64,000 bases of DNA from positions 7,274,501 to 7,338,500 of the forward strand of contig NZ_JARXYJ010000001.1 in NCBI RefSeq assembly GCF_029894425.1, written 5' to 3'. A program made the translations under genes and the position numbers. Position 1 is the stretch's first letter, and each line of letters opens with the position of its first letter. Shown here piece after piece: positions 5,302 through 33,401 of this stretch. The notes under the pieces were generated by a model, which worked only from the letters and a program-made list of their open reading frames with translations, did not search any database and was not told where the DNA came from. Source of the DNA: Streptomyces sp. SAI-127 (lineage in GTDB: Bacteria > Actinomycetota > Actinomycetes > Streptomycetales > Streptomycetaceae).

Positions 5302-5492
5302 GCTGAACGGTGGGTGAACTGATCCGGGCGGTTTCCGGGGATGGTGGCGGGAACCCGCCGGATTTTGTACCGTGGAGAAACAAAGTGGCTCCCGCCCGTT
5401 TTCCCTGACCGGCGGGCGGGGCCGCCTTGTCCCTCCGGGGGGTGCGGGGGAGACACCTCCGAAGCCCCACGTCCCGCGTCTTGGAGCTGCCG

Positions 5493-6161
5493 ATGACGGC
5501 CACCGCCGCCCCCACCGTGCTCACCGCCCGCGCCCTCCTGCTCGACATGGACGGCACCCTCGTCAACTCCGACGCCGTCGTGGAGCGCATCTGGCGCCGC
5601 TGGGCCGAACGCCAAGGACTGGACGCCGACGAGGTCATGAAGGTCGTCCACGGCCGCCAGGGGCACGCGTCGATGGCGATCCTGCTGCCCGACCGGCCCA
5701 TGGAGCAGAACCTCGCGGACAACGCGCGCATGCTCGCGGAGGAGACCGCCGACATGGACGGTGTCGTGGCGATACCGGGCGCGCCCGAGTTCCTGGCCTC
5801 CCTGCGGGACCTGCCTCACGCGCTGGTGACCTCGGCCGACGTCCCGCTGTCCACGGCCCGGATGGCGGCCGCGGGGCTGGGGCTGCCCGATGTCCGTGTC
5901 ACCGCCGAGTCCGTGGGGGCGAGCAAGCCGGACCCCGAGGGCTTCCTGAAGGGAGCGGCGGAGCTGGGTGTCGCGCCCGCCGACTGCATCGTCTTCGAGG
6001 ACTCCGGGGCGGGAATCGCCGCCGGCAAGGCGGCCGGGATGAGGGTCGTGGGAGTCGGGGCGCGAGCCGCGGTGCACGGGCCGGATGTGGTGGTGGAGGA
6101 TCTGACGCGGGTGAGGGTGGAAGCGCAGGCAGACGGCATGCTCCGGATCTACGTGAAGTAA
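5493..6161 (+). CDS. HAD superfamily sugar-phosphatase-like hydrolase
   Basis: This 222-aa HAD-IA phosphatase has all four motifs: I, LLDMDGTLVNSD (nucleophile Asp near residue 18); II, VTSAD; III, ASKPDPEGF; IV, VFEDSGAGIAAG. The alpha-helical cap between motifs I and II is the size found in hexitol/sugar-phosphate phosphatases (YfbT/HxpA type). Substrate cannot be told from sequence. The ATG at 5493 has GGAG 6 nt upstream. An upstream in-frame ATG at 5427 adds a basic, low-complexity leader and lacks a ribosome binding site. Confidence 0.85.
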   Translation: MTATAAPTVLTARALLLDMDGTLVNSDAVVERIWRRWAERQGLDADEVMKVVHGRQGHASMAILLPDRPMEQNLADNARMLAEETADMDGVVAIPGAPEFLASLRDLPHALVTSADVPLSTARMAAAGLGLPDVRVTAESVGASKPDPEGFLKGAAELGVAPADCIVFEDSGAGIAAGKAAGMRVVGVGARAAVHGPDVVVEDLTRVRVEAQADGMLRIYVK

Positions 6162-12189: not shown

Positions 12190-13554
12190 TTACCGCTGCG
12201 GCGGCGAGCCCGGCAGTGGCCGGCCCGCAGACTCCGTCATGAACCACACCGCCACGCCGCCGATCACGGCCGCGGCCATCATGTAGTAGGCGGGCATCAT
12301 CATGTTCCCGGTCGCGCCGATCAGGGCCGTCACCACCAGCGGGGTCGTGCCGCCGAAGAGGGACACCGAGATGTTGAAGCCCACCGAGAGGGAGCCGTAG
12401 CGCACCCGGGTCGGGAAGAGGGCCGGGAGGGCCGAGGGCATCGCCGCCGTGAAGCAGACCAGGAGCAGGCCCAGCGCGCCCATGCCGAGCGCGATCGCGA
12501 ACAGGCTGCCCTGACGGATCAGCAGCAGGGCCGGTACCGAGAGCAGCAGGAAGCCCGCGCAGCCCGCGGCGATCACCGGGCGGCGGCCGACGCGGTCGCT
12601 CAGGGCGCCCGCGAAGGGCTGGACGACCATCATCAGCGCCATCACCGCGAGGACGACGAGCAGGCCGTGTGTCTCGTCGTACTTCAGCTCGCTGGTCAGA
12701 TAGCTCGGCATGTACGACAGCAGCATGTAGTCGGTGACGTTGAAGACCAGGACCAGACCCACGCAGAGCAGCAGGGCCTGCCACTGGCCGGTGATCATCT
12801 CGCGCAGCGGGACCTTCGGGCGGCTCGACTCGGCCTTCTCGGCCTCCGCCGCGAACGCCGGGGTCTCCTCCAGGCGCAGCCGCAGATAGAGGCCGATGAC
12901 GCCCATCGGGCCCGCGATCAGGAACGGGATCCGCCAGCCCCAGGACACCAGGTCCTCGGTGGACAGCAGGGCCGTCATCAGCGTGACCAGACCGGCGCCG
13001 GCGATGTAACCGGCCAGCGTGCCGAACTCCAGCCAGCTGCCGAGGAAGCCGCGCTTCTTGTCGGGCGCGTACTCGGCGATGAAGGTGGACGCGCCCGCGT
13101 ACTCGCCGCCGGTGGAGAAGCCCTGGACCAGGCGGGCGGCCAGGAGCAGCAGCGGGGCGCCGACGCCGATCGTGGCGTACGACGGGATCAGGCCGATGGC
13201 GAAGGTGCCGGCCGCCATCATGATCATGGTCACGGCGAGGACCTTCTGGCGGCCCACCCGGTCGCCCAGCGGGCCGAAGACCAGGCCGCCGAGCGGGCGG
13301 ACGAGGAAGGCCGCGGCGAAGGCGCCGAACGTCGACAGGAGCTGGGCGGTCGGATCGCCGGACGGGAAGAAGACCTTGCCCAGGGTGACGGCGATGTAGC
13401 TGTAGACGCCGAAGTCGAACCACTCCATGGCGTTGCCCAGTGCGGCGGCCTTGACGGCACGCTTCACGAGGGCCGGATCGACGACGACGGCATCGGGGGT
13501 GTCGGGGTCGCGAGGGGCGTGGACGGGATGGGTGAGGGCTGGGGCACTCGGCAA
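12190..13554 (-). CDS. MFS transporter, metabolite:H+ symporter (MHS, ProP-like)
   Basis: This 454-aa protein has 12 predicted transmembrane segments. MHS hallmarks are visible: GNAMEWFDFGVYSYIA in TM1, GPLGDRVGRQKVL (motif A), the RLVQGFSTGGEYAGASTFIAEYAPDKKRG block and SDRVGRRP in the second half. The family takes up osmolytes and carboxylates (proline/betaine, alpha-ketoglutarate, shikimate). The substrate is undetermined, with ProP-type closest. The start is TTG at 13554 with an AGGCGAG-like site about 9 nt upstream. It is separated from the O-methyltransferase by 86 nt. Confidence 0.85.
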   Translation of the reverse strand: MPSAPALTHPVHAPRDPDTPDAVVVDPALVKRAVKAAALGNAMEWFDFGVYSYIAVTLGKVFFPSGDPTAQLLSTFGAFAAAFLVRPLGGLVFGPLGDRVGRQKVLAVTMIMMAAGTFAIGLIPSYATIGVGAPLLLLAARLVQGFSTGGEYAGASTFIAEYAPDKKRGFLGSWLEFGTLAGYIAGAGLVTLMTALLSTEDLVSWGWRIPFLIAGPMGVIGLYLRLRLEETPAFAAEAEKAESSRPKVPLREMITGQWQALLLCVGLVLVFNVTDYMLLSYMPSYLTSELKYDETHGLLVVLAVMALMMVVQPFAGALSDRVGRRPVIAAGCAGFLLLSVPALLLIRQGSLFAIALGMGALGLLLVCFTAAMPSALPALFPTRVRYGSLSVGFNISVSLFGGTTPLVVTALIGATGNMMMPAYYMMAAAVIGGVAVWFMTESAGRPLPGSPPQR

Positions 13555-13651
13555 AACTTCGCTCGCCTGCCTTTCGACGGGGACAAGGGCAAAAAGCGAC
13601 CATAGGTGGACTTGCCGGGTTCACGTACTGCTCGGTTCCGGTCGCGGAGCG

Positions 13652-13672
13652 TGCATAAATGTGCTGTATGCA
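13652..13672. promoter_or_regulatory. inverted repeat in the divergent MHS/GT87 promoter region
   Basis: TGCATA-N9-TATGCA lies in the 311-bp gap between the divergent transporter and GT87-PAP2 genes, 98 nt from the TTG and 194 nt from the GTG. It is a candidate GntR/IclR-like site. The rest of the gap shows only a -10-like TATCGT near 13762 on the plus strand. Confidence 0.35.
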
Positions 13673-13865
13673 GGTATCCCGTGCCTGGTCAGGGGCGTGT
13701 CTTCCCGGAGCGCATGTGATCCATCTCGCGCCTGGCTGAGCGACGGCACTCGCGGCGGACTATCGTCATTCGGACAAATGGAGGCGGACGTCAGGTGAAG
13801 CCGGGGTTGCCTGCGTCCTTCCTCTCGGACGCATGGCACGACCGGAATTGAGAGGCCGACGAGGC

Positions 13866-15900
13866 GTGGCGAATGCGGAGCACAGTGGGACTACGGAGGT
13901 CCAGGCGCGGCTGCGCGCGGCCAGGCTGGCCCTGTGGCTGGTGGCCGCGTTCCTCGCCGTCAGACAGGTGGCCGTCGTCCTCAGTACCCCCAGAGGCGAG
14001 CGGCTGACGGACCTGGAGACCTGGGTCGGCCCGGACGGCGTCCTGCATGTGAAGGGTTCGCTGTACGACTCGACGCAGTTCACCGGTACCCCGTTCGGGG
14101 GACTCGTCCTGAAGCCGCTCACCCGTGCCGCCGAACAGGCTCTCGGCTGGGGCTGGACCTTCGGCACCCTGCTCCTGGTCGTCGCCCTCGGCCTCGTCGC
14201 CGCCCGCGCTCTCCCCCAGCCGGTCGACCGCCGCACCTCCCTGCTCGCCGCGCCGGTCGCGATCAGCCTTCTCATGCTGTCGCTGCCCGTGCGCAACACG
14301 CTCTACCTCGGGCAGACCAGCATCATGCCCGTCCTGCTGGTCCTGGTCGCCTGCTTCGTCGTACGAGGTGAGCGGCTCAGCGGCCTGCTCATCGGTCTCG
14401 CCGCCGCCCTCCAGCCCACGGTCCTGCTCTTCGCGCCCCTGCTCTGGTTCACCGGCCGCCGCCGGGGCGCCCTGACCACGGGCGCGACCTTCGCCGCCGG
14501 CACCGCGCTGGCCTGGGCCGCGATGCCGCACGACTCGTACACCTACTGGGTGCACCACATCGCGGGCACCGGACTCGGCGGTCCCGCCGACGACCTCTCC
14601 AACCAGTCACTGCACGGCCTGCTGCTGCGTCTGGGTGTGGCCGGACCGCTGGAGATCTCCCTCTTCCTGGTCCTGGGTGTGGCCGTCGCCGCGCTGGGCG
14701 TGCGGCGGGCCGTGCGCTACGCCCGTGACGGCCAGCTGCTGCTCGCCGTCGCGATCACCGGGTGCGCGGCGATCGCCGTCTCGCCGACCACCTGGCAGCA
14801 CCAGCTGCTGTGGGTGCTGCTCGCGGTCGTCGGGCGGGTCGGCAAGCGCGCCTCCGACCGGTACGTGTGGCCCGTGGCCGTCGTCGTGGTGATGACCCTC
14901 CCGGCGTCGATGATGCTGCCGCACATCTCGGCGCTGTACACCCTGCGGGACAACGTGGTGCTGCTGGCCGCGCTCGCCGCCGCCACGGTGATTCCCTTCC
15001 TGTCGCGGACCTCGCCGTACTACCAGGCGCCGATCCCCACGGACTACGCCGCGCCGGTACCCGCGCGGCTGCGGCGGGTGCCGCTGCTGCCGTTCCTGCG
15101 GCGGGTGCTGACCCGGCCGAATCTGCTCCTCGAGCTGCTGCTGATTCGTGTCACCTACGCCGCCTACCAGCAGGTCAGACTCGCGGCCACCGGCGGAAGC
15201 AACTCCGCGGGGCGGGCCACCGCCGAGGAGCACGGCCGGCAGATCCTCGACCTCGAGCAGTGGCTGCACATCGACATCGAGCACTGGGCCAACCACGCGG
15301 TCGTCAAGGTCGACTGGCTGCGGAACTTCTTCGACTTCTACTACGAGTCCTTCCACTTCGTGGTGCCGCTGAGCGTGCTGGCCGTCCTGTACTGGCGGCG
15401 GCCGGGGGACTACCGGTGGGCCCGGGCCTCGCTCGGCTTCACGACCCTGCTGGCCCTCGTCGGGTTCTGGCTCTATCCGCTGGCACCGCCGCGGCTCATG
15501 CCGGGGCTGGGGGTCATCGACACCGTGCACGGCGTACAGGACTTCTCCAAGCCGGACTACGGGACCTTGACCGCCCTGACCAACCAGTACGCGGCGATGC
15601 CCTCGCTGCACTTCGGGTGGTCGCTGTGGTGCGGGGTCGTCATCGCGATCATCGCGCCCCGGTGGTGGATGAAGGGGCTCGGGCTGCTGCACCCGCTGTT
15701 CACCGTTTCGGCGATCGTGGCCACCGGTAACCACTGGGTGCTGGATGCGGCGGGGGGCGCGGCGGTCGTCGCCGGTGGGTTCGGGCTGTCGTATCTGTTC
15801 CAGGGGCCGCGGGCCCGGGTGGTGGCCGTTGCCGCGGAGGCCGACGCGGAGCGGGCCGACCGCCTGGTGAAGCGGTCGGCCCGGAACACCGGGACAGGAG

Positions 15901-26935: not shown

Positions 26936-27355
26936 TCAGTACCAGCCGTTGGCCTGCCAGAAGGCCCAGGCGGCGGTCGGGCTGCCGTAGCGGGAGTTCA
27001 TGTAGTCCAGGCCCCACTTGATCTGGGTCTTGGCGTTGGTCTTCCAGTCCGAGCCGGCGGCGGCCATCTTCGAACCGGGCAGGGCCTGGACCAGGCCGTA
27101 GGCGCCGGAGGAGGAGTTCATGGCGTCGACGTCCCAGCCGCTCTCGTGCTCGACGATCTTGCTGAACGCGGCGTACTGCGCGGCGTTCGGGATCATCTTG
27201 TGCGCGATGGCCTTGGCCTGGGCGGGCGAGTTGGTGGTGGCCGCCTGAGCCGGCGCCGCGGTCAGGACCAGGCCGGCGGTGGCGGCGGCCATCGCGACGG
27301 TGGTGATGGCCTTCTTCGGGGAAGAGATGCGGCGGGCGATACGGGAGACGGACAC
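26936..27355 (-). CDS. secreted lytic-transglycosylase-like wall protein
   Basis: 139 aa. The signal peptide (AITTVAMAAATAGLVLTAAPAQAA, cleavage near 39) precedes a compact SLT/aggregation-promoting-factor-like domain: FSKIVEHESGWDVDAMNSSSGAYGLVQALPGSKMAAAGSDW ... WGLDYMNSRYGSPTAAWAFWQANGWY. The Glu in HESGW is the presumed catalytic acid. Short single-domain enzymes like this remodel peptidoglycan. The GTG at 27355 has AAAGG 7 nt upstream. It converges with the lipase gene, only 13 nt apart. The 285-bp upstream gap shows no riboswitch I can support. Confidence 0.87.
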   Translation of the reverse strand: MSVSRIARRISSPKKAITTVAMAAATAGLVLTAAPAQAATTNSPAQAKAIAHKMIPNAAQYAAFSKIVEHESGWDVDAMNSSSGAYGLVQALPGSKMAAAGSDWKTNAKTQIKWGLDYMNSRYGSPTAAWAFWQANGWY

Positions 27356-27640: not shown

Positions 27641-28450
27641 TCACCGCTCGGACGCCTCGAATGTGACCTGGGCCTCGAAGGCGGCGCGCCGGGTGGCCCG
27701 GCGGAGCGCCCTGAGGAGGGCCGGGCCGAGGGTGAGCGTCAGGACGACGGTCACCAGGGCCCGGCCGAGGTCCCAGCCGAGGGACGTGGCCAGGCAGTAC
27801 GTGACGAAACGGGCCAGGTTGGCGGGGACGCCGGCGTGCGGGTCGAAGGCGATGTTCGAGGCCAGGGCGCCCATGAACGGCCAGCCGGCCATGTTCATGG
27901 CGGTGCCATAGGCGAAGGCGGCGAAAAAGCCGTACACCGCGAGGAGGCGGACCTCGGCGCGGCCCCTGGTGCGGTCGGGGCCCGGCAGCAGGCCCGCGCC
28001 CATCGTGAACCAGCCCATCGCCAGCATCTGGAACGGCATCCACGGACCCACCCCGCCCGTGAGCAGGGCGGACGCGAACATCGTGACGTTGCCGAGCACG
28101 AAGCCGAAGCCGGGGCCGAGAACCCGGCCGCTGAGCACCATCAGGAAGAACATCGGCTCGATGCCGGCGGTACCCGCGCCGATCGGTCTGAGTGCGGCAC
28201 CGGTCGCGGCGAGCACCCCGAGCATGGCCACGGCCTTGGGGCCAAGCCCCGACTCCGCGATCGCCGCCGCGACCACCGCGACGAGCAGGACGAGCAGTCC
28301 GGCGAAGAGCCAGGGGGCGTCCTGGGCGTGAGTGCCGACCCGGGAGGTGGGCGGGGCGAGGAAGGGCCAGCCGAAGGCGACCACACCCACGGCGCTGACC
28401 AGGGCGAGGGTGAGGAGGGAGCGGGGTCCGAGGCGCACGGCCCGGGTCAT
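27641..28450 (-). CDS. ECF transporter S component (probable cobalamin, CbrT-like)
   Basis: This 269-aa membrane protein has about seven transmembrane helices and an S-component core (GAALRPIGAGTAGIEPMFFLMVLSGRVLGPGFGFVLG ... GPWMPFQMLAMGWFTMGAGLLP). It would bind the vitamin in the membrane and partner with the T and A proteins encoded just upstream. Its ATG at 28450 overlaps the ATPase stop (ATGA), with GAGGAAGG upstream. It is the last gene of a five-gene operon led by a cobalamin riboswitch, so B12 or a corrinoid is the best substrate guess. Confidence 0.85.
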   Translation of the reverse strand: MTRAVRLGPRSLLTLALVSAVGVVAFGWPFLAPPTSRVGTHAQDAPWLFAGLLVLLVAVVAAAIAESGLGPKAVAMLGVLAATGAALRPIGAGTAGIEPMFFLMVLSGRVLGPGFGFVLGNVTMFASALLTGGVGPWMPFQMLAMGWFTMGAGLLPGPDRTRGRAEVRLLAVYGFFAAFAYGTAMNMAGWPFMGALASNIAFDPHAGVPANLARFVTYCLATSLGWDLGRALVTVVLTLTLGPALLRALRRATRRAAFEAQVTFEASER

Positions 28451-30192
28451 GGCAGGGCCTTCCTCACCTGGGTCACCGTGAGCCACCGCTGAGGGGCGAG
28501 GATCTTGCTGACCTGCGGGGCGAAGGAGGGTGAGGCCGTGATGACGTCCGCCGCCGGGCCGTCGGCGATCACCTCGCCCTCGGCCAGCAGGATCACCCGG
28601 TGGGCGAGCTCGGCGGCGAGTTCCACGTCGTGGGTGGCCAGCATGATCGCGTGGCCGGTGGCGGCGAGTTCCCTCAGCAGGCCGACGAGACGGGCCTTCG
28701 CGGCGTAGTCCAGGCCGCGGGTCGGTTCGTCGAGGAGCAGGAGGGGCGGGCGGGCGGCCAGGACCACGGCGAGGGCGAGCGCGAGCCGCTGTCCTTCGGA
28801 GAGATCGCGGGGGTGGGTGTCGTCGGTCACGCCGGGGAGGAGGTCGTCGACGAGTGCGCGGCAGGTGCCTGGTGTTGTTTGGGCGTCGGTGTCCGCGGCT
28901 CGGCATTCTGCGGCGACCGTGTCGGCGTACAGGAGGTCGCGGGGTTCCTGGGGTACGAGGCCCACGCGGCGTACGAGGTCCTGCGGGGCGGTGCTGTGGG
29001 GCTGGGCGCCGCCTACGTGGACGGTGCCGGTGGAGGGCTCGACGAGGCCTACCAGGGTGTTGAGGAGGGTGGACTTTCCGGCGCCGTTGCGGCCCATGAG
29101 GGCGATGGTCTCGCCGGGGCGGACGGTGAGGTCGATGTGGCGCAGGGCCTGGACGCGGGCTCTTCGGACGGAGAGGGCCTGGACTTCGGCGGTGAGGGGG
29201 GTCGTGCTGGGCGTGGGGCGACTGCGGCGGGGACGCCAACGACGGAATGCCCGGCCTTCGGCCGGGATGCTGTTCCCACCCGCACCACCCGTGCGGCTTT
29301 CGTCGCCGGGTGCGGGTGGCCCCTGTGGGGCGGTCTCGCCGTTGGCGGCTGCGGGTGCGTTGTCCATGGGCGTGCGCCCGGACAGCCGCTCCCGCAGTTC
29401 GCCCGCCCTGCGCCGCGCGTCCCGCACCGTCAGCGGCAGGGGAGCCCAGCCCGCCAGCCGGCCCAGGTCCACCACCGGCGGATATACCGGGGATACGGCC
29501 ATCATCTCGGCCGGGGTGCCGAAGACCGGTGCTTCCCCGCGGGCGGGCAGGAGGGCGACCTGGTCGGCGTACTGGATGACACGTTCCAGGCGGTGTTCGG
29601 CCATGAGGACCGTGGTGCCCAGATCGTGGACCAGCCGTTGGAGGACGGCGAGGACCTCCTCCGCCGCCGCGGGGTCCAGGGCCGACGTCGGCTCGTCCAG
29701 GACCAGGACCCGGGGATGCGGGGTGAGCACCGAGCCGATCGCCACGCGTTGCTGCTGGCCGCCGGAGAGGGTGGCCAGCGGGCGGTCGCGCAGGGGCGCC
29801 AGGCCCAGCAGGTCCAGGGTCTCCTCCACCCGGCGGCGCATCACCGTCGGCGACAGTCCCAACGACTCCATGCCGTAGGCGAGTTCGTCCTCCACGGTGT
29901 CCGTCACGAAGTGGGACAGCGGATCCTGGCCCACCGTGCCGACCACATCGGCCAGTTCGCGCGGCTTGTGGGTACGGGTGTCGCGGCCGGCCACCGTGAC
30001 CCGGCCGCGCAAGGTGCCGCCGGTGAAATGCGGGACGAGCCCGCTGACCGCGCCGAGGATCGTGGACTTGCCGACCCCCGACGGGCCCACGAGCAGCACG
30101 AGTTCCCCCTCCGGCACCTCGAAGTCGACACCCTGGACGGTGGGTTCGGATGCCCCGTCGTACGTCACGGAGACATCCTCGAAGCGGATCAC
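28447..30192 (-). CDS. ECF transporter ATPase, two fused ABC domains
   Basis: 581 aa. Domain 1 (about 1-230): Walker A GPSGVGKST, signature LSGGQQQR, Walker B VLVLDEPTSALD. Domain 2 (about 335-570): Walker A GRNGAGKST, signature LSEGQRL, Walker B LLLLDEPTRGLD. A ~90-residue, probably flexible linker joins them. Both sites look intact, so it replaces separate EcfA1/EcfA2 subunits. The GTG at 30192 overlaps the EcfT stop (GTGA), with AAGGAG 8 nt upstream. It energises the corrinoid ECF transporter. Confidence 0.92.
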   Translation of the reverse strand: MIRFEDVSVTYDGASEPTVQGVDFEVPEGELVLLVGPSGVGKSTILGAVSGLVPHFTGGTLRGRVTVAGRDTRTHKPRELADVVGTVGQDPLSHFVTDTVEDELAYGMESLGLSPTVMRRRVEETLDLLGLAPLRDRPLATLSGGQQQRVAIGSVLTPHPRVLVLDEPTSALDPAAAEEVLAVLQRLVHDLGTTVLMAEHRLERVIQYADQVALLPARGEAPVFGTPAEMMAVSPVYPPVVDLGRLAGWAPLPLTVRDARRRAGELRERLSGRTPMDNAPAAANGETAPQGPPAPGDESRTGGAGGNSIPAEGRAFRRWRPRRSRPTPSTTPLTAEVQALSVRRARVQALRHIDLTVRPGETIALMGRNGAGKSTLLNTLVGLVEPSTGTVHVGGAQPHSTAPQDLVRRVGLVPQEPRDLLYADTVAAECRAADTDAQTTPGTCRALVDDLLPGVTDDTHPRDLSEGQRLALALAVVLAARPPLLLLDEPTRGLDYAAKARLVGLLRELAATGHAIMLATHDVELAAELAHRVILLAEGEVIADGPAADVITASPSFAPQVSKILAPQRWLTVTQVRKALP

Positions 30193-31364
30193 GACGACGG
30201 CTCCTTGGGCGTGGGGGAGAGGAAGGCCGGCAGCAGGCCGAGCAGGACGGCCGCGGCGGGCAGGAGTGGCAGGGTGGGGGCGACGAGCGGCACCACGCCC
30301 GGATGCAGGGCCGCAGGATCGGTGGCGCCCGCGAGGAACATCGCCGCCGCCACGGCCGCGCCGGAACCGGCGACCAGGAAGGACCGGACGTCCCAGCGGT
30401 CCGGGCGGTAACGGGTGCGCGGGGTACGGCGCCCGCCCAGCCGCAGACCCGCCAGGGCGGCGGCGAGGCCGGCGAGCAGGACGGGGATGCCGTACGTGCC
30501 GCCCTCGGCGGTGAGGAGTCCGTACGTTCCCGCGCAGACACCGAGCAGGCCACCGAGGGTGAGCGCGGTGGTCGTACGGCGGACTCGGGGCGGGACCTCG
30601 GCCGTACGGCCGTAGCCGCGGGCGTCCATTGCCGCGGCGAGGGCGACCGAGCGCTCCAACGCGCCCTCCAGCACCGGGAGTCCGACCTGGAGGAGACCGC
30701 GGATGCCGGTGTCCGGGCGGCCTCGGAGGCGGCGGGCGGAGCGGAGGCGCTGGACGTCGGCGATGAGATGGGGGGCGAAGGTCAGGGCCACCACCACGGC
30801 GACGCCGAGTTCGTAGAGGGCGCCGGGGAGGGACTTGAGGAGGCGGTGCGGGTTGGCGAGGGCGTTCGCCGCGCCCACGCAGATGAGGAGGGTCGCCAGT
30901 TTCAGGCCGTCGTAGAGGGCGAAGACGAGGGACTCCGCGGTGACCCTGCCGCCCAGCCGGATGCCCTGCGCCCAGTCGGGGAGGGGGAGTTCGGGGAGGG
31001 TGACGAGCACATGCGTGCCGGGTATGGGGGAGCCCAGGGTGATCGCGAAGAGGAGGCGGACCAGGAGGACGGCGAGGGCGAGTTTGACGAAGGCGGCGTA
31101 GGAGTGGGACCAGGGCGTGGGGCGGCGGCAGGTCGCCACCACGTACGCGGAGGTGGCGATGAGGAGGGCGAGGAGGAGGGGGTTGGTGGTGCGGGTCGCC
31201 GCTATCCCGAGGGAGAGGGACCACAGCCACCAGGCGCCGGGGTGCAGGGGCGCGGGGCGGTGGACCTGGGCCGGGGTGGGTGCGCTCGCCGGTGCCGGTA
31301 GGGTGCCGCCCGTTTTCGCGGCGGCGGCACGACCGCCGGCAGGCCGCGCGGGTGCGTTACGCAT
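30189..31364 (-). CDS. ECF transporter T component (CbiQ/EcfT)
   Basis: 391 aa, longer than the usual ~260 because of an N-terminal ~45-residue Ala/Pro-rich extension and extra C-terminal helices. The coupling motif region is visible (ALERSVALAAAMDARGYGRT, the EcfT Ala-Arg-Gly helix that docks on the ATPase), as is the conserved ANPHRLLKSLPGALYELGVAVVVALTFAPHLI. It starts at ATG 31364, overlapping the upstream SCO2322-like gene by 8 nt, and ends overlapping the ATPase gene. It forms the energising module of the operon. Confidence 0.9.
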   Translation of the reverse strand: MRNAPARPAGGRAAAAKTGGTLPAPASAPTPAQVHRPAPLHPGAWWLWSLSLGIAATRTTNPLLLALLIATSAYVVATCRRPTPWSHSYAAFVKLALAVLLVRLLFAITLGSPIPGTHVLVTLPELPLPDWAQGIRLGGRVTAESLVFALYDGLKLATLLICVGAANALANPHRLLKSLPGALYELGVAVVVALTFAPHLIADVQRLRSARRLRGRPDTGIRGLLQVGLPVLEGALERSVALAAAMDARGYGRTAEVPPRVRRTTTALTLGGLLGVCAGTYGLLTAEGGTYGIPVLLAGLAAALAGLRLGGRRTPRTRYRPDRWDVRSFLVAGSGAAVAAAMFLAGATDPAALHPGVVPLVAPTLPLLPAAAVLLGLLPAFLSPTPKEPSS

Positions 31365-31986
31365 GCCGGCGGCGCCTCGCCTGCCATACTGCCGCCGCGC
31401 CCAACGCCACCACGCCCGCTGCTCCCACCCACAGGCCCACCGACGGGCCGCCGTCCTGCTTTTTCTCGGCGGGCGCCGGCCTCGTCGCTCCCGTCACCTG
31501 CTCCCCGCACCCCGTCTGCGGATACCCCGCGATCGCGCACAGCAGGGCGTTGGTGTTGTAGCGCAGCGGCTTGGCGGCAGTTGCCAGGGCCTCCGCGGTC
31601 GTCGCGTCGCGGGGTACCACCGCGCACTCGGTGCGCCGGGCCGGGGGTGTCTCGCCGGACGGGGCGTCCGAAGCCGTACCGAAGTCGATGACCAACGCCA
31701 CGCGCTTACGGCCGTCCCGTGCCGCCGTGTCCCCGCAGATCGCCGTGAACGAGGCCGGCCCGCGGGGCGTGTCCGCGTCCGCCGAGTCCTCGCTCACCGC
31801 GAAGCGGAAGCCCTGGACGTCGCCGTCGGAGGGGACCGTCGTCGAGGGGCCCTCGGTGGCGTAGGTCCAGGTCGAGCCGGTGCGGTCCCAGAAGGACCAG
31901 TAGCGGTACCCGGCGGCGTGGGCCGGGCTCGCGGTGGCCAGGAGGAGGCCCGCCAGGAGGGAGAGGAGGAGTGCCCGCCGGGTCAC
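31357..31986 (-). CDS. SCO2322-family secreted, C-terminally anchored protein
   Basis: 209 aa. Signal peptide (ALLLSLLAGLLLATASPAHAA, cleavage near 25), an exported domain (YRYWSFWDRTGSTWTYATEG ... GFRFAVSEDSADADTPRG ... ALLCAIAGYPQTGCGEQ) and a C-terminal transmembrane helix with a basic tail (VGLWVGAAGVVALGAAAVWQ, then ARRRRHA). Cysteines could form external disulfides. The GTG at 31986 overlaps the stop of the upstream toroid gene (GTGA). No function is assigned to this family. The operon position suggests a surface component of corrinoid capture. Confidence 0.85.
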   Translation of the reverse strand: MTRRALLLSLLAGLLLATASPAHAAGYRYWSFWDRTGSTWTYATEGPSTTVPSDGDVQGFRFAVSEDSADADTPRGPASFTAICGDTAARDGRKRVALVIDFGTASDAPSGETPPARRTECAVVPRDATTAEALATAAKPLRYNTNALLCAIAGYPQTGCGEQVTGATRPAPAEKKQDGGPSVGLWVGAAGVVALGAAAVWQARRRRHA

Positions 31987-33158
31987 GGCTGCTTCCTCTT
32001 GTTGCGGCTGCTGAGCAGGAAGCCGACGCCCGCGCCGGCGGCGAGTCCCGCGCCGACCATCCACCACACGGAGGTGTCGGAGTCGTCCTGGGACGCGGTG
32101 ACCGGCGCCGGTCCCGTCGCGGTCAGCTGCTTGACCAGGTCCGTGCCGCCGAAGTCGCTCGGGTCGGCGCCACCCGCCTCGGCGGCGAGGATCAGCTGGG
32201 CGTATGCCGCCGGGCCGCTCTGCTCGGCCCACTTCGCGGAGTTCCGCTCCAGCCAGCGCAGCGGACCCGTGGCCGCCGCCGTACCGCCCCGCGCGGCCAG
32301 CGCCACGACCGCGTCGGCCGTGTTGCCGTAGTCGGGCTGGTTCTCGGAGCCGGGCAGGGCGGAGGTCAGGTGGCCGTCCTTCGCGACGGCCTTCGCCAGG
32401 TAGGCCGAGCCGTTGGCCGCCGCGTCCTCCGGGGTGGGGCGGGCCGCGTCGGTGCAGGCGGCGTTCTTCTTGTCGCCGGCCTTCACCGAGACCATGCCCT
32501 GGCCCAGCGCACCGACGACGGCCGCCGCGGTCGCGTCCGCGTTGGCCGTGAGCTTGCCCTTCTTGTCCGGCTGGTAGGCGAACGCACCTCCGTCGGCACA
32601 CGGCAGGGACAGCTTCAGCAAGGCGTCGTAGGGCGACTTGCCGTATTTGGCGATCCGCGAGATGTCGGCACCCGAGGCGTTGAGCGCACCGATCACCACG
32701 GACGTCGAGTTGGCGTCGCTGGCCCCGCCGGGGGTGTAGCCCCAGCCGCCGTCCTTGTTCTGGACGGACTTGAGCCAGGTCACCGCCTTCGTGACCGCGG
32801 TGCCGTGCCCGCCGACCGCGGACAGGGCCTGCGCGGCGGCGGCCGTGCTGTTGGTGTCGACCATCAGTTTGGCGTCGCAGGCCTTGGCCGGGTTCGCGCG
32901 GAACGCCGGGAACGCCCCGCTCTCGCACTGCTGCCCGGCCAGCCAGTCGACGGCCGCGTCGGCGGGTTCCACGTCCACCCGGTGCAGGGCGATCAGGGCG
33001 AGGGACTGGCGCCAGACCCCGTCGTAGGTGGGATCCGTGCTGCCGTACAGCCCGGAGGGGGACGAGGGAGACGGGGACGGCGAGGCGGCCACGGCGGGTG
33101 TGGCCGTGCCGAAGGCGACGGTGGCGGCCAGGACCGCGGCGCTGCGGCGGACGTTCAT
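31983..33158 (-). CDS. secreted alpha/alpha-toroid protein (prenyltransferase/squalene-oxidase repeats), transcobalamin-like
   Basis: 391 aa. Signal peptide (residues 1-25), a Ser/Pro linker, then about five alpha/alpha-barrel repeats recognisable by their G-G-W/F turns (WLAGQQCESGAFPAF, WLKSVQNKDGGWGYTPGG, YLAKAVAKDGHLTSALPG). A C-terminal transmembrane anchor with a basic tail follows (WWMVGAGLAAGAGVGFLLSS). This barrel is the fold of the cobalamin-binding alpha domain of transcobalamin/intrinsic factor. With a cobalamin riboswitch upstream and an ECF transporter downstream, a cell-surface B12 capture role is inferred. The ATG at 33158 is preceded by AGAAGGG 13 nt away. Confidence 0.85.
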   Translation of the reverse strand: MNVRRSAAVLAATVAFGTATPAVAASPSPSPSSPSGLYGSTDPTYDGVWRQSLALIALHRVDVEPADAAVDWLAGQQCESGAFPAFRANPAKACDAKLMVDTNSTAAAAQALSAVGGHGTAVTKAVTWLKSVQNKDGGWGYTPGGASDANSTSVVIGALNASGADISRIAKYGKSPYDALLKLSLPCADGGAFAYQPDKKGKLTANADATAAAVVGALGQGMVSVKAGDKKNAACTDAARPTPEDAAANGSAYLAKAVAKDGHLTSALPGSENQPDYGNTADAVVALAARGGTAAATGPLRWLERNSAKWAEQSGPAAYAQLILAAEAGGADPSDFGGTDLVKQLTATGPAPVTASQDDSDTSVWWMVGAGLAAGAGVGFLLSSRNKRKQP

Positions 33159-33224
33159 GATCGGCGGATGCCCTTCTCCCTGCGGGGAGCCGGGCAGCGC
33201 GGGAGGACCCCGGGCGGCTCGGCT

Positions 33225-33345
33225 CCGTATATCTCGACGGTGCCGCGCACCGGCCGGTCTCCCAGGCCCTTGAGGCACTGGGCGAGGGGCAGCGCCGGAA
33301 TTGCACCGGCTTCCCCCCGTACGGCATCTGATGACGACCTGGCTA
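33225..33345 (-). ncRNA. cobalamin (B12) riboswitch
   Basis: On the minus strand the core reads GGGAAGCCGGTGCAATTCCGG followed by CGCTGCCC, the conserved receptor and B12-box segment of cobalamin riboswitches, at about 33286-33317. Downstream comes GGGAGACCGGCC (33250-33261 region), another family signature. Upstream is the GCCAGG...GATGCC P2 region. It lies 67-190 nt before the toroid gene and overlaps no CDS. GC-rich sequence between 33159 and 33225 could form the regulatory hairpin. It should repress the operon when B12 is plentiful. Confidence 0.85.
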
Positions 33346-33401
33346 CTGTACTCGCCCGTAGGAAAGCGACTGAGAGCCGCCCAAGGGAGCCTCCGTCCGG
33401 G

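Follow-up and report, generated by a model that had tools for sequence, protein, structure and literature searches.

We analyzed a five-gene operon with a cobalamin-riboswitch-like leader on the minus strand of a 64,000-nt stretch of DNA from Streptomyces sp. SAI-127 (the whole stretch is referred to as the window, and coordinates are counted from its first base). The first gene (31983-33158, minus) encodes a toroid protein of the SCO2321 family, with a signal peptide, an alpha/alpha toroid at residues ~34-350, and a C-terminal membrane segment followed by a basic tail. It scored 580 bits with the NCBIfam model SCO2321_fam, which is above the cut-off. The second gene (31357-31986, minus) encodes an SCO2322-family protein with a signal peptide, a circularly permuted DUF4430-related domain (the beta domain) and a GPS-CTERM anchor; SCO2322_fam (NF040672, 228 bits) and GPS-CTERM (NF040681) both matched above cut-off. 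The signal peptides and the C-terminal membrane segment of the toroid protein were read by eye. The remaining three genes encode an energy-coupling factor (ECF) transporter: an EcfT-type transmembrane coupling protein (30189-31364, minus; PF02361 CbiQ, 36.1 bits against a cut-off of 25), a double-ATPase EcfA with two ECF ATPases in a single chain (28447-30192, minus; two ABC_tran (PF00005) stretches above cut-off, and matches to NCBIfam ECF ATPase models below their cut-offs), and an S component predicted to be corrinoid-specific (27641-28450, minus). The S component reached 30.4 bits with PF12822 (ECF_trnsprt), 0.3 bits short of the cut-off of 30.7. This family was found at E ≤0.1 in 20 of the 23 members of the S-component alignment, and the S component is the sole match to its own sequence in the genome. 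From the toroid gene to the S component, neighboring genes overlap by 4, 8, 4, and 4 bases. Having S component, EcfT, and ATPases together in a single operon, the transporter belongs to Group I of the ECF transporters, and by position its double ATPase, EcfT, and S component are CbrU-, CbrV-, and CbrT-like, respectively. Streptomyces canus proteins were among the closest named relatives of the operon proteins. A riboswitch leader followed by five overlapping genes had been claimed in a preliminary description made from the sequence alone; both are confirmed as real and lie where it placed them, with the protein families and the RF00174 match described below in agreement.

Upstream of the toroid gene, the cobalamin riboswitch model RF00174 (clan CL00101) aligned over its full length at 33235-33354 (minus strand) with 28.1 bits and E = 2.9e-5 (601 bases searched); in a whole-genome search the same aptamer had E = 1.2e-4. 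The aptamer anticipated by the preliminary description was thus matched, at a score under the RF00174 gathering score of 31.5 bits, and for that reason a plain RF00174 scan of the window returns nothing. The orthologous leaders give a clearer answer than the window's single score. We scanned 16 leaders, a subset of 30 Streptomyces loci, and RF00174 was above its gathering score in nine; cobalamin-clan matches at E ≤1 were found in 15 of the 16, one of them weak (E = 0.85). Of the best 80 of 514 Streptomyces loci, 79 extended far enough upstream to be searched for the aptamer core with a pattern allowing one error or one substitution, and all 79 had it within 450 nt upstream. The same pattern turned up in only 4 of the 718 control windows taken from other parts of these loci. 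This stricter pattern with its control replaced a looser one (three errors) that gave doubtful positions in several loci. Just upstream of the core lies a candidate -10 element of the TAnnnT type (33345-33350, minus), a putative promoter, whose positions 1 (T), 2 (A), and 6 (T) were invariant in 36 of 36 aligned Streptomyces leaders. In S. lividans, TAnnnT has been reported as the -10 motif (PMC8079986; this and the other papers are cited from excerpts). Inspection by eye of the 36 leaders also showed at least two sequence subtypes of the aptamer 3' half within Streptomyces, of which the window (33235-33345) carries the rarer one.

Three other RF00174 sites above cut-off were found in the genome, at a NicT/NiCoT gene, at nrdA, and at cbiB, which is followed by cobQ. 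They form a normal B12 regulon, which the operon fits. The same genome has two full-length metH genes above cut-off (G000:C1:8303502 and 5824348). Borovok 2006, as cited in PMC4991794, gave eight more B12 riboswitch sites in S. coelicolor; these may include the present leader, and we do not claim the riboswitch itself as new. An Rfam annotation of S. lividans lists two cobalamin riboswitches, and the gene names in the excerpt indicate neither at the toroid/ECF operon (PMC8079986).

The gene order was examined in the best 80 of 514 Streptomyces loci. All five genes were present in the same order in 64 of these, and 14 of the 16 incomplete loci end within 360 bases past the last gene found. In loci L168 and L171 the sequence continues 6-8 kb beyond the last operon gene found and the missing ECF genes were not detected; their frames may be broken or the genes may truly be lost. 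SCO2321-family matches above cut-off occurred in 59 of the 61 genomes of the genus that were searched. A search with SCO2322 through 396 genomes of the phylum yielded matches at E ≤0.001 in 54, of which 13 were above the family cut-off. Twenty neighborhoods, each from a different one of these 54 genomes and chosen by the beta-domain gene, are referred to as distant loci. In 19 of them genes for EcfT, the double ATPase (matches to both the N- and the C-half), and the S component adjoin the beta gene; the twentieth, L080, is a contig ending inside the operon. The gene order thus persists in distant Actinomycetota. The toroid was detected in 14 of the 20, and in a fifteenth (L076) through the NCBIfam family scan, leaving five loci in which it was not detected (L065, L067, L069, L075, and L080). 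RF00174 was above its gathering score upstream of operon genes in 11 of the 20, with weaker matches at L065 and L084.

Toroid and DUF4430-type domain occur as adjacent genes, and in L076 (5569-7881) they are fused in one chain together with CWB2 cell-wall repeats, with a riboswitch match at 5373-5502 ahead of the fused gene. The toroid of L082 bears SLH domains. Given these CWB2 repeats and SLH domains, the toroid and beta protein most likely work together at the cell surface. One frame of L072 (4897-7779) holds two tandem beta domains, and L072 and L076 each have a separate extra beta-domain gene beside the longer one; such tandem or extra domains are possible multi-valent binders.

DUF4430 is the C-terminal domain of the transcobalamins (TCN proteins) (PMC4350170). 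Four distant genomes (G134, G284, G366, and G390) yielded matches to both halves of the SCO2322 model, in reversed order. We built a profile of the distant domains from 23 of the 24 found, some sharing a locus, and left out the copy in L065, which has the Streptomyces-like order. Compared with 37 DUF4430 domains, this profile reached a probability of 96.1% in HHalign (E = 3e-9, 102 columns), and the maximum of 30 column-shuffled controls was 1.0%. Swapping the halves of SCO2322 extended its alignment with the distant profile from 49 columns (E = 1.1e-13) to 114 (E = 2e-26); 38 of the 61 sequences could be cut for this purpose. Rotation of the full SCO2322 alignment in 10-residue steps produced a single smooth peak with the start at 75-85 and a score of 147 vs. 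78.5 unrotated. By these alignments SCO2322 is a circularly permuted relative of DUF4430, the beta domain being permuted in Streptomyces and one other sampled genome (G062) with respect to its distant relatives. A search of PDB sequences with the beta profile gave two nanobody-type matches at chance level.

The SCO2321 toroid behaved in the same way. Each of the 14 distant toroids that matched in both halves has the stretch corresponding to SCO2321 residues ~235-350 ahead of the other half. Half-swapped SCO2321 (cutting was possible for 28 of the 65 sequences) aligned with the distant toroids over 283 columns and unswapped SCO2321 over 179, while rotation of all 65 sequences in 20-residue steps peaked with the start at 234 (score 318 vs. 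217 unrotated). By these measures SCO2321 is also circularly permuted in Streptomyces relative to the distant toroids. Four cysteines were invariant in all 65 aligned SCO2321 proteins and four in all 61 aligned SCO2322 proteins, as one expects of proteins that would be exported with disulfides. One distant locus, L084, is from the window's own genus (genome G171) and carries the operon a second time, in the canonical half order. There an LPxTG-like toroid (by eye) follows the S component, the copy faces an oligopeptide/nickel-type ABC permease gene, and RF00174 matches lie on both strands between operon and permease, the one on the operon strand being under the gathering score.

The preliminary description had tied the toroid to transcobalamin, where this is the fold of the cobalamin-binding domain. 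The fold of the SCO2321 toroid was predicted well, and complement C3d and others were among its fold matches; no transcobalamin chain was among the matches listed from the fold and sequence searches, which speaks against nothing. The toroid taken by itself is thus a weak link, its nearest relatives being terpene cyclases, and the relationship of SCO2322 to DUF4430, which that description did not name, is the stronger one.

To see which genomes have the system we scored the domain as present when SCO2322 matched at E ≤0.001. The C-terminal domain of methylmalonyl-CoA mutase (MCM) is a B12-dependent mutase domain. Among the non-Streptomyces genomes it was found in 40 of 42 with the beta domain and in 194 of 342 without it, and CobJ was above cut-off in 3 of 42 and 92 of 342, respectively. 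MCM without CobJ was accordingly seen in 37 of 42 genomes with the domain vs. 131 of 342 without (Fisher p = 5.5e-10, shared ancestry ignored). All 12 sampled genomes of the window's genus had both CobJ and MCM. Among 21 genomes tested further, the MCM C-terminal domain was present in 21, CobJ above cut-off in 5, and CobQ in 6. FecCD, the BtuC-type permease family, had no match above cut-off in 12 of the 21; all 12 were without CobJ and CobQ above cut-off, and all had the MCM domain. In these 12 genomes the operon is the only candidate for a B12 importer that was found, with the limits that the search for importers did not extend to other families and that drafts may miss genes.

Corrinoid import is the best reading of the operon, given what the computations show of its leader, gene arrangement and synteny, the domain relationship, the permutation, and the association with B12 use without CobJ. 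The interpretation in the preliminary description is upheld in part: its proposal of B12-controlled capture and import finds good support in the riboswitch-like leader, the synteny, the B12 regulon, and the distribution. We are probably dealing with a corrinoid (vitamin B12) salvage operon that combines a two-protein surface clamp with a dedicated ECF importer and would be repressed by a cobalamin riboswitch. At low adenosylcobalamin (AdoCbl) the leader would permit expression, and with plentiful AdoCbl the riboswitch would repress the operon. The toroid and the DUF4430-related beta protein would be exported and anchored in the membrane at their C-termini, as the features read by eye suggest for the toroid, and the pair would reproduce, outside the membrane, the clamp that transcobalamin and intrinsic factor form from two domains, here at the cell surface. 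We infer that it holds B12 between toroid and beta domain and passes it to the S component, and that import is powered by the dedicated EcfT and double-ATPase module. Permutation of both chains would have moved the chain ends, perhaps allowing C-terminal anchoring of both proteins beside the transporter. The pair may further represent a bacterial two-chain, surface-anchored analogue of transcobalamin, both chains of which were permuted in Streptomyces while keeping their partnership, so that vertebrate carriers and bacterial pairs would be forms of one ancient toroid-plus-DUF4430 corrinoid clamp; this wider proposal is tentative and falls slightly short of an even call.

Parts of such a system have been reported. 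Lactobacillus delbrueckii ECF-CbrT imports B12 and cobinamide (PMC5997447, PMC6593275), and CbrUVT is a named predicted transporter assigned to B12 or cobyrinate diamide (PMC6593275, PMC8123684). Like these, the operon would encode a B12 ECF importer with ATPases, EcfT, and S component; unlike them, it has a dedicated module and two exported partner proteins, and its S-component profile finds no solved CbrT. For Lacticaseibacillus rhamnosus, the proteome paper PMC9963975 lists one protein annotated "Additional lipoprotein component of putative cobalamin ECF transporter" and a DUF4430 protein encoded near rtpR. The two are presumably the same protein, annotated as a lipoprotein whereas SCO2322 bears a GPS-CTERM anchor. 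With ECF-CbrT characterized, CbrUVT predicted, and this lipoprotein component annotated, the earlier statement that systems of this kind were not described in Gram-positive bacteria was too strong. The idea of adding a surface part to a B12 ECF transporter has precedents, and what appears to be new is the split, doubly permuted transcobalamin-like pair. As in transcobalamin, intrinsic factor, and haptocorrin, a toroid is combined with a DUF4430-type domain, and the fused protein of L076 has both kinds in one chain; unlike in those carriers, the two are here separate genes, both permuted with respect to distant bacterial relatives. No direct sequence match of the operon proteins to transcobalamin was among the matches listed from PDB sequences. 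The BtuFCD binder and permease are unrelated to those of the operon, and the permease family, FecCD, is the one that went unmatched above cut-off in 12 of the 21 genomes. The likeness to BtuFCD lies in B12 import by an ABC (ATP-binding cassette) machine with an extracytoplasmic binder (PMC2667541, PMC5997447). Within the open-licence literature, no paper on SCO2321 or SCO2322 function was found among the matches listed, and SCO2320-SCO2325 gave a single match, on a skin-delivery peptide. The NCBIfam families SCO2321 and SCO2322 carry placeholder names without function, and the reading, if true, assigns them one. It would also offer a candidate B12 route for Actinomycetota without corrin-ring synthesis, a bacterial transcobalamin relative amenable to purification and study, and what we believe to be an uncommon instance of circular permutation in both members of a protein partnership within a single lineage.

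Several observations weigh against corrinoid capture and import as set out above. Besides the score of the window aptamer (28.1 vs. 31.5 bits), RNAalifold found 0 of 8 predicted pairs covarying in the 36 leaders, the core of which hardly varies and is uninformative on this point, and the window leader folds with no more than a moderately low energy (z = -1.69; 10 of 200 shuffles were equally stable). No RF00174 match was found at the operon in 7 of the 20 distant loci, by the gathering threshold only. Half-swapped SCO2322 compared directly with DUF4430 reached only 61.8% (E = 7.7e-5, 67 columns; unswapped 24.6%), and the link between the two therefore runs via the distant relatives. A direct match to Pfam PF14478 (DUF4430) was absent from the SCO2322 protein (E limit 1) and from six distant beta-domain proteins including the fused one (E limit 10). 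The AlphaFold2 model of SCO2322 was poor (predicted local distance difference test, pLDDT, 61.4), and its structure searches matched nothing, so that the model was given no weight either way; the nearest folds of the toroid are squalene-hopene cyclase and drimenyl diphosphate synthase, both terpene cyclases, and sequence searches place it there too. The S-component profile matched no solved S component in PDB, CbrT included, and members of the S-component alignment matched the riboflavin-type PF07155 (12 of 23, best E 4.7e-8) and the folate-type TIGR04518 (8 of 23, best E 2.8e-5). Finally, shared ancestry is not accounted for in the distribution test, and the window strain has CobJ and CobQ, so that by gene content import is not essential to it.

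Toroid and beta protein could instead serve in the envelope or in assembly without contacting the ligand, with the ECF part alone importing B12. According to PMC5997447, the L. delbrueckii importer ECF-CbrT consists of an S component and an ECF module, and the five distant loci in which the toroid went undetected, with L080 as the contig-end case, are in line with this. We consider it unlikely, as the ECF genes stand beside the beta gene in 19 of the 20 distant loci (though loci were selected by that gene), the beta domain is related to DUF4430, and toroid and beta domain occur in a fused architecture. It is less probable again that the operon imports not B12 itself but a precursor or part of it (cobinamide, cobyrinate diamide, or alpha-ribazole/dimethylbenzimidazole) or cobalt. 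Cobalamin riboswitches also control cobalt transport (PMC8079986), one RF00174 site in the same genome precedes the NiCoT gene, B12 ECF transporters also take cobinamide (PMC6593275), cbrUVT is annotated as "cobyrinate diamide uptake" in a review (PMC8123684), and the S component is without a close solved relative. Cobalt and early precursors would nevertheless be of little use to most of the 21 genomes, because CobJ was found in 5 and CobQ in 6 of them against the MCM domain in 21, and large paired surface domains of transcobalamin type would suit a large ligand.

There is little likelihood that repeated folds misled the alignments, so that the half-swaps would be artefacts rather than circular permutations. 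Alpha/alpha toroids are internally repetitive, and some first-half matches of the distant toroids were weak (E = 0.58 in L066 and 0.023 in L068). Against this, both proteins gave a single smooth score peak on rotation, the order was reversed in each of the 14 distant toroids, and the beta alignment has no internal repeat evident by eye. Hardly credible is a terpene-cyclase-like enzyme or lipid binder in an operon handling an isoprenoid under B12 control: the best fold and sequence matches of the toroid are drimenyl diphosphate synthase and squalene-hopene cyclase, and 3 of 14 distant toroid stretches contain the class II terpene cyclase catalytic motif DxDD, each at a different position, but in none of the 65 aligned SCO2321-family proteins does it lie inside the toroid (10 have it, solely in the acidic linker close to the C-terminus, at residues 358-374), and the four invariant cysteines and the adjoining ECF importer and cobalamin-type leader also speak against it.

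A plasmid search with SCO2322 gave no match. In L083, metE (12335-14803, minus), encoding the B12-independent methionine synthase, stands behind an RF00174 match and adjoins two toroid/beta gene pairs. An RNase P RNA gene (RF00010) lies near the ECF end of the operon in L070 and L081. In the window, a small protein with a transglycosylase SLT-like domain is encoded directly downstream of the operon (26936-27355, minus).

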